DNA from: Comamonadaceae bacterium
GTDB taxonomy: Bacteria; Pseudomonadota; Gammaproteobacteria; Burkholderiales; Burkholderiaceae_C
Direction of reading: 5' to 3'
DNA: 64,000 nucleotides
Assembly: GCA_014190675.1 (NCBI GenBank)
Contig: BJGT01000001.1
Location: 41,109-105,108 of the forward strand
Part shown: piece by piece, positions 13,480 through 38,982 of the stretch
Layout of the letters: each line of letters opens with the position of its first letter
Position numbering within the stretch: the first letter of the stretch is position 1
Program-made: the position numbers and the translations under genes
The notes under the pieces: model-generated
The model's database searches: none
The model's input: the letters and a program-made list of their open reading frames with translations, nothing else
Told to the model about the DNA's origin: nothing

Positions 13480-15291
13480 TCAGCCCTGCTTGATACTGCC
13501 AGGCACGATTTTCGCCCCAAAATCGCGCAACATGGTCTGCACGAAGGGGTCTTCAAAAATGATTTTCTCGGCCGCCAGTTGGCGCTCGGCCGCAGCTTGC
13601 GCATTGCGCCTGGCGGGGCTGTCGCTCACCCGGCCGACCTCCACCACCAATTGCACGGCATGGCCCGCTGCCTGCAAGGCTGATGCCAGGCGGTCCCGGC
13701 TGCCGGGCTGGTTAAGCGACTCGCGTTCAAGCCGAAGCAGCCACTGGTCGGTGTCGCGCGCAAGCAGTTGTGCCTGTAGGGCCAGCTCCCGCACCAGGCC
13801 GGAGATAGCCTCCTTGGCCACCAGTTCCTGCACCACGGCATGCCAAAAACTGCCGTCTTCGGTGGGCACCAGGGCTGCCACCGACTGTTGGGCCAGAACC
13901 TCAGAACGAGAATCGGCCGCAACCCGCACCGGAATATCCGCAATCTCGGGCTCCGTCGCAGCTACAACTGGCAGCGCCGGGCTGGCCTGGGACCTGGACG
14001 CTGCGCCTTGCCAACTGGCTGCCACCGACCCACCGCTGCGCACTGGCAGCAGTTGCCCGGCGCGGTCCGATGCATGACCGGCTGGGGCTGGCAGGGGTTT
14101 GTTGGGGGCATCAAGCAGCGGCGCTTGGGCCCGAAGCAGTTCTGGCGCAGCCTCAATCAGAGTTTTTTTTTCTGCTGCGGCCAAAACCGGGCGCCCCGGT
14201 TTGAAGGCCAGCAAACGCAGCAAGACCATGGTCAAGGCGGCGTATTCATCAGGCGCCAAACCCAGCTCAGCCCGACCATGCAGGCACAGGCTATAGAGCA
14301 ACTGCGTCTCGTCCGCTGGCAAACTGCGGGCCAAGGATGCAAGTTCTGCCGCATCCGGGTCGCTGTCGTCCGGCTCACCAGGCACGGCCTGCAACACTGC
14401 CATGCGCTGTAAAACTGTGGCCATTTCCTCCAGTGCGGCAGCCGCACTCAAGCCATGCAGCCGCAGGGTCTCGACAGTCTGGACCACCGCCTTGCCATCG
14501 CCGAGGGCCAAGGCTTGCAACAAGCCAAACACATAGCTGCGATCGACACTGCCCAGCATCAGGCGCACGCTGGCTTCTTGGAGCTGCCCCGAACCGAAGG
14601 CAATCGCCTGATCGGTCAAGCTCAGCGCATCGCGCATGGAGCCCCGTGCTGCGCGGGCCAGCAGGCGCAGCGACTGTGCATCTGCCTGCACCCCTTCAGC
14701 CAGCAGCACTTGCTGCAGATGTTCGCCAATCGTCTCGGGCGCCATCGGACGCAAGTTGAACTGCAGACAGCGGGAGAGCACCGTCACCGGAACCTTTTGC
14801 GGGTCGGTGGTGGCAAGCACAAATTTCAGGTAGTCCGGCGGCTCCTCCAGGGTCTTGAGCATGGCATTGAAAGCGGTGCTGCTGAGCATGTGCACTTCGT
14901 CGATCATGAACACCTTGAAGCGCCCTTGCACAGGTTTGTAGACCGCCTGCTCCAGCAGCGCCTGTATCTCGTCAACGCCGCGGTTTGAAGCCGCGTCGAG
15001 TTCGGTGTAATCAACAAAGCGGCCGGTGTCAATGTCGGTGCAGGCTTGGCAAACGCCGCAAGGCGATGCGGTGATGCCGCCCTGCCCGTCAGCGCCCTGG
15101 CAGTTGAGGGATTTGGCCAAAATACGCGACACCGTTGTCTTGCCAACACCCCGGGTTCCCGTGAACAAATAGGCATGATGCAGCCGCTTCGTCGTCAGCG
15201 CGTTGCTAAGGGCCTGCACCACATGGCCCTGCCCCACCATTTCAGTGAAATTCTTGGGCCGGTATTTGCGGGCAAGGACGAGGTAGGACAT
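13480..15291 (-). CDS. dnaX: DNA polymerase III subunit tau (DnaX), with likely frameshift-derived gamma form
   Basis: This is the clamp-loader ATPase that also organises the replisome. The start is ATG 15291 ([15 protein letters not shown]), giving 603 residues. Walker [10 protein letters not shown] is at about 45-53, zinc cysteines at 64, 78, 81 and 84, and the sensor region [10 protein letters not shown] follows. After domain III ([12 protein letters not shown]) comes a low-complexity linker and a tau-specific C-terminal domain. Codons 374-377 read GAA AAA AAA ACT, a run of nine A. A -1 shift gives NSD-stop and a +1 shift gives L-stop, so either slip makes a roughly 377-379 residue gamma-like protein of domains I-III. 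ffs lies just upstream, divergent. Confidence 0.97.
14163..14171 (-). other. A9 slippery run inside dnaX (candidate programmed or transcriptional slippage site)
   Basis: On the coding strand the run is nine adenines: G AAAAAAAAA CTCTGATTGAGG. In frame 0 it reads Glu-Lys-Lys-Thr. The heptamer A AAA AAA fits the X XXY YYZ form for -1 shifting. The -1 frame stops three codons later (AAC TCT GAT TGA) and the +1 frame stops after one (CTC TGA). The run sits at the boundary between domain III and the linker, where gamma ends in species that make it. I see no clear upstream Shine-Dalgarno-like stimulator. Confidence 0.6.
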
Positions 15292-15420: not shown

Positions 15421-15518
15421 GTGACGGGCCTTCCCACATGGGGAAGCGGCCAACCGGGTCAGGTGGGGAACCAAGCAGCCCTAACTGTGGATCCAGTGCT
15501 GGGGTCAAGGCTCGTCAA
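15421..15518 (+). ncRNA. ffs: Signal recognition particle 4.5S RNA
   Basis: The conserved core GGGTCAGGTGGGGAACCAAG followed by CAGCCC is the SRP RNA domain IV hairpin that binds Ffh. The apical stem reads TGG-GGAA-CCA where most species have TCC-GGAA-GGA: both sides changed together and the GGAA tetraloop and asymmetric loop are kept, which supports a real RNA. The ends pair as TGACGGGCCTT with AAGGCTCGTCA, giving a hairpin of about 98 nt. The boundaries are inferred from that pairing. The 3' end overlaps the stop of the convergent flavoprotein gene by about 14 bases. Location next to dnaX is common in Burkholderiales. Confidence 0.9.
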
Positions 15519-16863
15519 CCCCCTTTTCGTCACCCAGCCGAGTCGCAGCAATGGCCGTGGCTTGCTGGCCTACAGCGCTTGATCTGCCGTTTTTTTTCTG
15601 TTCCAGAAAGTCTAAAATGCCGTCCGCGGCCTGGCGCCCAGTGGCCAGACTTGCGGTCAACAAATACCCCCCGGTCGGCGCCTCCCAATCCAACATTTCC
15701 CCCGCACAAAATAAACCCGGGCAGGACTTGGCCATCAGCCCTGAATCAAGGCCCTCAAATCGAACCCCCCCAGCCGTGCTGATAGCCTCGTCTAGCGGTC
15801 GGGTCGCGCCAAATGACATGGGCAGGGCCTTGATGGCTGACGCAAGTTCCCCGGCATGGTGCATGCGCTGGGGCCCCAAGCACTCATGCAGCAGGGCAAG
15901 CTTCACGCCTGCCAAAGAGAGTCGACTTTTCAGGTGGTTGGCCAGCGAACGTGATCCGCGCGGGTGGTTTATTTCGGCCTGCACCCGCTGCAGCGACAGG
16001 TCTGGCAACAAGTCGAGCACAAAATCAGCTTGCCCGGTGGCGTCAATTTGGTCGCGCAATTGACGCGAGAAAGCGTACACCAAGCTGCCCTCGAAGCCGC
16101 TGTGCGTCACCACAAATTCGCCCTGCTGGCGCTGTGTTTGGCCCTGCACATCGGTCACCGTGAGGGCTATGGTTTTCAAGGCTTGGCCAGCGAAACGTTG
16201 CCCAAAATAGGGGCTCCAGGCAGGGGCCACATCAAAACCGCAGTTGCTCGGGCGCAGCGGCGATACAGCGACGCCCCGCGCCTCGACCTGGTCGACCCAC
16301 AGCCCGTCAGACCCCAAGCGGGCCCAACTCGCGCCGCCCAAAGCCAGCAGCACCGCATCACCGCTGGCCAGCGCAGGGCCCTGGGGGGTCAAAAAAAGCA
16401 ACTCGAGGGCTGTTTCGTCTTCCCGGTCTGCCCAGCCGACCCAACGGTGCCGCAGGTGAAATTTCACGGGCTGCCCCTGCTCGGGTTGGCGCAAACGCTG
16501 CAACCAGGCCCGCAGCAGGGGAGAGGCCTTCATCTCGTTCGGGAAAATACGCCCTGAGCTGCCGACAAAAGTCGACACTCCCAGCGACCGGGCCCAAGCC
16601 TGCAACTGCTCGGCGTTGAAGGCCTGAATGGCAGACGAAACATGGTTGCAATGCGGCCCAAAGCGGCTAAGAAATCGGGCAAGAGGCTCTGAATGGCTCA
16701 GGTTCAAGCCGCCCCGGCCAGCCAGCAAGAACTTGCGGCCAACAGAGGGCATAGCATCAAACAAGTTTACCGCCACACCAGCAGCCGACAGCACTTCTGC
16801 GGCCATCAAACCGGCTGGCCCGCCGCCCACCACCAAGACTCGGTGGGTCGGCTCAGCCGTCAT
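15505..16863 (-). CDS. NAD(P)/FAD-dependent oxidoreductase, BaiN/HI0933 (TIGR03862-type) family
   Basis: This is a 452-residue flavoprotein with the N-terminal dinucleotide motif VLVVGGGPAGLMAAEVL, the family block GRKFLLAGRGGLNLSHSE, and the C-terminal FCAGEMLDWEAPTGGYLLTASLATGR segment that closes the FAD site. The start is placed at ATG 16863 (MTAEPTHRVLVVGGG); the ORF track's 39 extra residues have no family counterpart. Members are mostly uncharacterised oxidoreductases, some implicated in steroid or small-molecule reduction, so the substrate is unknown. The last codons overlap the 3' end of ffs on the other strand. It is divergent from trxA, sharing a 264-base spacer. Confidence 0.9.
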   Translation of the reverse strand: MTAEPTHRVLVVGGGPAGLMAAEVLSAAGVAVNLFDAMPSVGRKFLLAGRGGLNLSHSEPLARFLSRFGPHCNHVSSAIQAFNAEQLQAWARSLGVSTFVGSSGRIFPNEMKASPLLRAWLQRLRQPEQGQPVKFHLRHRWVGWADREDETALELLFLTPQGPALASGDAVLLALGGASWARLGSDGLWVDQVEARGVAVSPLRPSNCGFDVAPAWSPYFGQRFAGQALKTIALTVTDVQGQTQRQQGEFVVTHSGFEGSLVYAFSRQLRDQIDATGQADFVLDLLPDLSLQRVQAEINHPRGSRSLANHLKSRLSLAGVKLALLHECLGPQRMHHAGELASAIKALPMSFGATRPLDEAISTAGGVRFEGLDSGLMAKSCPGLFCAGEMLDWEAPTGGYLLTASLATGRQAADGILDFLEQKKNGRSSAVGQQATAIAATRLGDEKGVDEP

Positions 16864-17048
16864 GTTGCCAACCAGGTCTGGGGCTCTCGGCCGGCCCGGG
16901 GATGGCGGCTGGGCACGCTGCAGCGTCTTCGCAAGCAAGTCGCCGCTGCAAACTGTCGTCGTGTTGCTGGTGCTCGCCATGGCTGAGGGTGCGAAAGCTT
17001 GCCAAGCCTGGCCAATCGTAAAAGCCTGTAGTTTTCATTTGCTAATAT

Positions 17049-37902: not shown

Positions 37903-38379
37903 ATGGCCCTGATTCAACTGACACCCGCTGAGCGCAAAGCGCACCGTTCTGAAGCCCATCACCTCGACCCGGTGGTGATGGTAGGAGGCGAAGGCTTGAC
38001 CGCGGCTATCAAAAAAGAGGCTCATGCCGCCCTGACAGCGCACGGGCTCATCAAAATAAGAGTTTTTTCAGACGATCGTTCGGCACGCGAGGCCATGTTG
38101 CAACTTCTTGCCGAAGAACTCGATGCAGCGCCGATTCAGCACATCGGCAAATTATTGGTGCTGTGGCGGCCGATGCCGGCGCGTGAGAAGCCTGTCGATG
38201 AAAACCGCATGGCTGGCCCGCGAGAGTTCAAAGTGCTGAAGTACAGCAAGCAGGCGGGCCAACGGCCCGAGGTGAAAACCCTGCGTGTATTGGGCAACCA
38301 ACGGCTTTCGGCTGGCGGACAGGTCAAGCGAGCCAAAGCGCGCAAGCAAATCAGCGTCAAAAAGCGAAGTCAAACATAA
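37903..38379 (+). CDS. yhbY: YhbY family CRM-domain RNA-binding protein
   Basis: YhbY binds pre-50S ribosomal particles. The CRM domain fills residues 1-95 ([28 protein letters not shown]...[10 protein letters not shown]), with the GxxG-like VGGEG loop. A basic C-terminal extension of about 60 residues ([21 protein letters not shown]) goes beyond the roughly 97-residue E. coli protein. ATG 37903 matches family starts. The gene overlaps greA tail to tail by 10 bases. Confidence 0.93.
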
Positions 38380-38846
38380 GTCACCGACACCACCTCGTAA
38401 TTGCGCACGCCCCCGGGCGCCTGCACTTCGGCGGTGTCGCCCTCTTCTTTGCCGATCAGCGCACGCGCAATCGGGCTGCCTATGTTGACAAAGCCGAGTT
38501 TGATATCAGCCTCATCTTCGCCAACAATTTGGTAGGTCACCCGCTCGCCAGAAGCCTCGTCCTCGAGTTGAACAGTGGCGCCAAAAACCACTTTTCCGCC
38601 AGCGTCGAGTTCGGCCGGATCGATGATCTGAGCGGCCGACATTTTTCCCTCTATTTCCTGAATGCGGCCCTCAATGAAACCCTGGCGATCTTTGGCGGCG
38701 TCATACTCGGCGTTTTCGCTGAGGTCGCCCTGGGCACGGGCTTCGGCAATCGCATTGATAACCCAGGGTCGGTCAACTGTCTTGAGCCGGTGCAGCTCGG
38801 TTTTGAGCTTTTGGGCACCGCGTTTTGTGATGGGAATGGTGGCCAC
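38370..38846 (-). CDS. greA: Transcription elongation factor GreA
   Basis: GreA rescues backtracked RNA polymerase by stimulating transcript cleavage. GTG 38846 ([14 protein letters not shown]) gives 158 residues, the same as E. coli GreA, and has GGAG seven bases upstream; the track's earlier start is TTG. The coiled-coil tip carries the acidic residues ([15 protein letters not shown]) that hold magnesium. The C-terminal FKBP-like domain is complete. It follows carB in the order common in beta-proteobacteria. Confidence 0.97.
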
Positions 38847-38982
38847 TGAGCGCTCCGTCTGGGTGGTGAAAAGTTCCAAAAAAAAAACGGGCCGGGCAAG
38901 ATCTTGCGGCGGCGCCTAACCGGGCGGATTATGCCGGTGTTGTGCACCCTGTGGCCGCCAAGCCCTGCCCTGCCGCAGAAGG

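Follow-up and report, generated by a model that had tools for sequence, protein, structure and literature searches.

Conserved adenine run in dnaX of Comamonadaceae suggests a gamma-like clamp-loader subunit made by slippage

The window, a stretch of 64,000 nucleotides of contig BJGT01000001.1 (assembly GCA_014190675.1) from a Rhodoferax-like bacterium of the family Comamonadaceae, contains dnaX, the gene for the tau subunit of DNA polymerase III. Nine consecutive adenines (A9) occupy codons 374–377 of this gene, which read GAA AAA AAA ACT. Based on the conservation of the run and of stops in both shifted frames among relatives, we consider it probable (about 0.77) that the run is a programmed slippage site and that dnaX encodes two proteins by way of RNA polymerase slippage. 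RNA polymerase would slip on the nine A, so that part of the mRNAs carry 8, 10 or 11 A. On these mRNAs translation would end at a stop one to a few codons further on, giving a gamma-like subunit of 377–379 residues that consists of the AAA+ module and domain III and lacks the linker and the alpha-binding domain V; tau would come from mRNAs with nine (or 12) A. The idea of a gamma-like product, put forward in the original prediction from the letters of the window, is thus well supported, with gamma itself a predicted protein. We infer that slippage occurs in vivo, that its agent is RNA polymerase and not the ribosome, and that gamma joins clamp loaders.

The A9 run and its predicted products

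Codons 373–380 of dnaX, on the minus strand, are GCA GAA AAA AAA ACT CTG ATT GAG. Reading the minus strand from 14171 to 14163 confirmed the nine adenines, and both other frames close as quickly as had been claimed, through CTC TGA and AAC TCT GAT TGA. The interval originally assigned to the feature (14154–14180) does include the site, but the last base of the A10-frame stop is at 14153, one base outside it. The computed products are 377 residues (40.6 kDa, ending in AEKKL) for A8, 379 residues (40.8 kDa, ending in AEKKNSD) for A10 and 378 residues (ending in AEKKKL) for A11; tau is computed as 603 residues and 64.4 kDa.

The window DnaX matches the E. coli tau/gamma structures 8gj0 and 1jr3 in phmmer searches, and the NCBIfam gamma/tau models match it as well. 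The run begins 5–12 codons beyond the clamp-loader core, since Pfam domain III ends at residue 362 and the E. coli gamma chain of 1jr3, a solved clamp-loader structure (373 residues), aligns to residues 1–369. Its proposed position just after domain III therefore holds.

A pattern search of the whole 3.69-Mb assembly found only 12 runs of nine or more A or T, so that a 1.8-kb gene would be expected to have approximately 0.003 on its sense strand. Given this rarity in the genome and the in-phase presence of the run in 155 distinct dnaX genes of the family, the A9 run in dnaX exceeds chance.

Conservation of the run among relatives

The dnaX genes were gathered from the genus, family and order of the window genome and from 80 named contigs, mostly of Rhodoferax, with Ramlibacter, Curvibacter, Caenimonas, Hydrogenophaga and Polaromonas. 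Removal of identical sites left the 155 same-family genes with the run, which is A9 in 151 and A10 in four. It starts at the same codon position in 154 of them and follows the conserved RLLAFKP, in a linker that is otherwise variable in length and sequence.

The two lysines of the site are encoded by AAA in all 310 codons and never by AAG, compared to 988 AAA (39%) and 1523 AAG among the 2511 lysine codons elsewhere in the same genes. Among the 60 genes whose third-position GC content (GC3) exceeds 0.8, AAA accounts for 220 of 865 lysine codons elsewhere. The codon before the lysines is GAA, CAA or AAA (Glu, Gln or Lys), and the codon after them is ACN, AGY or AAG (Thr, Ser or Lys); where Ser follows the run, its codon is AGY in 23 of 23 cases, compared to 38% elsewhere. 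In the A9 genes all nine A positions are 100% conserved, whereas conservation falls to 30–60% a few bases off. As the flanking amino acids vary while the bases stay A, it is the nine adenines that are kept, more than the seven of a ribosomal heptamer. Either chance or a constraint on the peptide appears very unlikely as the cause of the run.

Conserved stops in both shifted frames

One codon on in the A8/A11 frame, 91% of the genes have a stop (TGA, TAA or TAG), compared to 4% at control positions, which were taken from the same linkers of the same genes. In the A10 frame, a stop within 12 codons is present in 97%, compared to 29% at control positions. The A8/A11-frame stop straddles two codons of the tau frame, a Leu codon, whose final bases open it, and the following codon, whose first base completes it. 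CTG at this site is followed by A in 114 of 114 cases, compared to 17% elsewhere, and the rare CTA, which makes up 16% of the Leu codons here and 1.3% elsewhere, is followed only by A or G. This contrast in the next base between CTA and CTG (Fisher p 7e-5) yields TGA, TAA or TAG at a single triplet, where GTA A and TTA A also provide the stop. The residue encoded after Leu varies (Ile, Lys, Asn, Thr or Ser), and the out-of-frame stop alone is constant. Such varied spellings suggest that the stop has been re-made several times.

The alignment of Comamonadaceae dnaX genes thus has the run conserved and shifted-frame stops nearby in almost all run-bearing relatives. Relatives with AAG lysines and no near stops would have spoken against slippage; no run-bearing relative with AAG was found.

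Comparison with known dnaX systems

The closest parallel is dnaX of Thermus thermophilus, in which A9 is accompanied by near stops in both other frames and a shorter gamma is made (PMC1088944, PMC5009743) by slippage on the nine A (PMC1088944). Both genes have nine A within the open tau frame, near stops on both sides and a predicted gamma without the C-terminal part. They differ in that the run here lies at 62% of the gene, right after domain III, that slippage is demonstrated in Thermus and predicted here, and that Thermus has two lysine tRNAs (PMC5009743), whereas only UUU was found here. E. coli RNA polymerase shows no detectable slippage on fewer than eight A and favours insertions over deletions (PMC6260861).

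E. coli dnaX also has one reading frame that gives rise to both proteins, tau and a shorter gamma. However, it does so by a programmed −1 frameshift at A_AAA_AAG, with six A and a G, at codon 428, aided by a Shine-Dalgarno-like stimulator and a stem-loop (PMC3711429), whereas nine A, near stops in both frames and neither stimulator were found here. An upstream Shine-Dalgarno-like sequence occurs in 7 of 153 genes, no excess over the 5.6% at control positions, and no downstream hairpin emerged over the same 153 genes (mean z −0.30, with 4% below −2). The E. coli-type heptamer is not at the site, which in the window reads A_AAA_AAA_ACT, and the second lysine is AAA in 155 of 155 genes. With neither a Shine-Dalgarno nor a 3' hairpin signal, the site is not of the E. 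coli ribosomal type, and the stop trap in two directions together with a constraint on nine bases rather than seven favours RNA polymerase slippage, as in Thermus. The preference of the original prediction for the Thermus type is supported by the conserved stops in both frames, the nine-A constraint and the stimulators not seen.

Just upstream of the run is a perfect 8-bp inverted repeat, which folds as the core of a longer stem extending to the A9 run and might form a nascent-RNA hairpin. Such a hairpin is prominent in the window gene and somewhat enriched across the family, but with the conserved RLLAFKP codons held fixed the excess is small (pairing 0.58 vs 0.52), and we do not claim it. 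An antisense reading, with T9 as part of a plus-strand terminator, was also set aside, with no terminator-like or promoter-like site nearby.

Distribution across the family and beyond

In an unrooted tree of 172 DnaX core domains (residues about 1–366), the run-bearing members of the family form one clade with support of 98. The run is present in 50 of the 68 sampled genera of the family and absent from the other 18, with no mixed genus. One gene of this clade (L065) resembled a loss of the run, but its sequence at the site is N, and it was set aside and counted neither way. Similar sites occur in other families of the order: in 3 of 3 genomes of f48, in 2 of 4 of f7, where the runs are at other positions (codons 491 and 519), and in one each of f46 and f12. 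Several of these other-family sites have AAC TGA directly after a −1 slip. The fewest run changes on the tree number 11, and some of these concern runs, in AT-rich genes or near domain V, that probably have nothing to do with gamma. At least seven changes are forced by well-supported branches, and gains and losses are inseparable on the unrooted tree.

Two dnaX genes from other gammaproteobacterial families (L348 and L373) have A9 and A10 runs at codon 415, with near stops in both other frames, which makes each a candidate in its own right for slippage of this kind. When a narrow anchor was used for a class-wide pattern search, the only match was the window's own genome, and the pattern was too strict to measure absence. 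A class search yielded few Enterobacterales, so that the ribosomal control is mainly E. coli itself and L358.

A different layout is seen in two members of the window's genus (L062 and L063), in which the run is A10 and the N-terminal frame is closed at 387 and 385 residues, respectively. An intact domain V is found in the A9/A12 frame of L063 and in the A8/A11 frame of L062. If these layouts are real, tau itself may need a slip in both, in opposite directions, and opposite directions are a criterion used previously for predicting transcriptional realignment (PMC3711429). L062 has A_AAA_AAG in phase, so a ribosomal slip would do for L062 alone. The study that uses this criterion described two-frame dnaX in 17 genes from 12 genera, nine of them with ten A, and proposed transcriptional realignment (PMC3711429). 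Those genes also have a poly-A run inside dnaX, and L062 and L063 share their inverted ten-A layout; there, however, it is tau that needs the slip, whereas in the window and in nearly all of the family it is gamma. The window dnaX does not have the inverted layout, its frame being open for 603 residues.

We favour, with some reserve, a history in which programmed RNA polymerase slippage in dnaX, with its two-sided stop trap, was already present in the ancestor of a whole Comamonadaceae clade and has been maintained there (50 sampled genera), evolved independently in several other families of the Burkholderiales and was sometimes flipped such that tau needs the slip.

Alternative explanations

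Ribosome sliding on AAA codons is the main rival, although we consider it unlikely. The same gamma would then arise from a −1 slip of the ribosome at A_AAA_AAA or from its sliding along the A run; the heptamer is in phase, the −1 frame closes nearby, a single tRNA-Lys (UUU) is seen in the genome, as in E. coli, and E. coli ribosomes can slide in either direction along iterated AAA codons (PMC4363877). Nevertheless, a pair of adjacent AAA codons does not normally cause sliding in the absence of a stall (PMC4363877), the stimulators expected of such a site were not found in the 153 genes, and AAG, the shiftier second codon (PMC5009743), never replaces the second AAA. The two A at the ends of the run vary no more than the seven between them, and the most strongly conserved stop is that of the +1 frame, which in E. 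coli dnaX is 12 codons off (the same stop test places its −1 stop one codon away). A good deal less likely still is that the run is kept for another reason, with the stops serving just to end frameshifted translation fast and the short protein having no role. That gamma is predicted here from sequence and that the sister clade is without the site are compatible with such containment. However, a single substitution to AAG or GAG would be the cheapest way to contain frameshifting and is never seen, and the truncation falls just after domain III, near the length of the 373-residue E. coli chain. It is barely credible that EKK(T/S), found in 144 of the 155 genes, is a functional or structural motif and that codon usage produced the run incidentally. 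AAG and GAG, both frequent in the rest of these genes, never occur at the two lysine codons and the Glu codon of the site, the sister clade of the family lacks the peptide, no examined member of the family combines AAG at the site with a lack of near out-of-frame stops, and the stops in two untranslated frames would be unexplained.

Several observations weigh against RNA polymerase slippage itself. With A_AAA_AAA in phase, the ribosome could in principle slip by −1 or slide, and the tRNA-Lys complement (UUU only, among 33 tRNA genes) detracts from a clean analogy with Thermus. The 155 genes share ancestry, so their counts represent conservation and not independent events. As a sister clade within the family lacks the run, a slippage-made gamma is evidently dispensable there. 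Finally, of the two genes with the inverted layout only L062 comes from a single-contig genome (G038), and homopolymer assembly errors are possible.

Novelty and significance

No report of dnaX slippage in Comamonadaceae or Burkholderiales was found in the open-access literature searched. The kind of system is already known; what is new is its conservation across a clade, a two-frame stop trap that can be demonstrated and a sister clade without the run. Most bacteria keep no dnaX frameshift signatures and may not make gamma, according to a review (PMC3290774), and here a large clade with cultured members has a dnaX slippage signature in almost every sampled member. If slippage is indeed ancestral and clade-wide, gamma would be far more widespread, and polymerase slippage a commoner route to it, than the few described cases suggest. 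Detection of truncating slippage by comparison has been called difficult (PMC1088944); it becomes detectable by comparison alone in this case because the stops in both unused frames are visibly conserved. The run-bearing clade beside a sister clade without the run also offers a natural comparison on what gamma is for.

Features of dnaX and its surroundings

Table 1. Features of the window dnaX gene, its predicted slippage site and other genes of the window
Feature	Position	Strand	Remarks
dnaX, DNA polymerase III tau	13480..15291	minus	603 residues; ATG start at 15291
A9 slippage run	14163..14171	minus	T9 on plus strand; codons 374–377 GAA AAA AAA ACT
A_AAA_AAA heptamer, in phase within the A9 run	14164..14170	minus	Part needed by a ribosomal −1 slip; flanking A on both sides equally invariant
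TGA of A8/A11 frame (one A lost or two gained)	14157..14159	minus	Reads CTC TGA
TGA of A10 frame (one A gained or ribosomal −1 slip)	14153..14155	minus	Reads AAC TCT GAT TGA
Perfect 8-bp inverted repeat AAACCGGG-GCG-CCCGGTTT	14184..14202	minus	Just upstream of run; possible nascent-RNA hairpin (putative)
AAA+/delta' type domain	DnaX residues 21–183		Pfam
ATPase lid	DnaX residues 188–235		Pfam
Domain III	DnaX residues 238–362, 14206..14580	minus	Pfam PF12169; final domain retained in predicted gamma
Tau domain V (alpha-binding)	DnaX residues 489–599, 13495..13827	minus	Pfam PF12170; absent from predicted gamma
Small bacterial signal recognition particle RNA gene	15423–15519	plus	RF00169, 57.6 bits; between dnaX and flavoprotein-like open reading frame
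greA open reading frame	38370–38879	minus	

Some relatives have unusual dnaX genes. Long dipeptide tandem repeats (VP or TP) are present in the linker just after the run in L063 and L064, and the L064 contig ends inside its repeat. In family f19, DnaX ends at 449 residues in L135 and at 441 in L223, with no domain V seen downstream in that frame; open frames of the sampled f19 members are 449–463 residues, and DnaX may be short by nature in this lineage, or its tau tail may have been lost or displaced. The zero frame of L230 (genome G450, family f44) ends at 377 residues with the tau tail in another frame; the junction has no long A run, and a frameshift error or another recoding route could account for it.

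Two other runs were observed within the window. An A8 on the minus strand at 15590–15597, near the 3' end of the flavoprotein-like open reading frame (15505–16980), is a second run of slippage length in coding sequence adjoining dnaX. An A10 on the plus strand (T10 on the sense strand) at 38878–38887 is located just upstream of greA and downstream of carB. Preceded by a stretch that is GC-rich and palindromic, this run might serve as the terminator of carB or belong to the leader of greA. GreA limits transcription errors, and a slippage-prone greA leader would be of interest for that reason.
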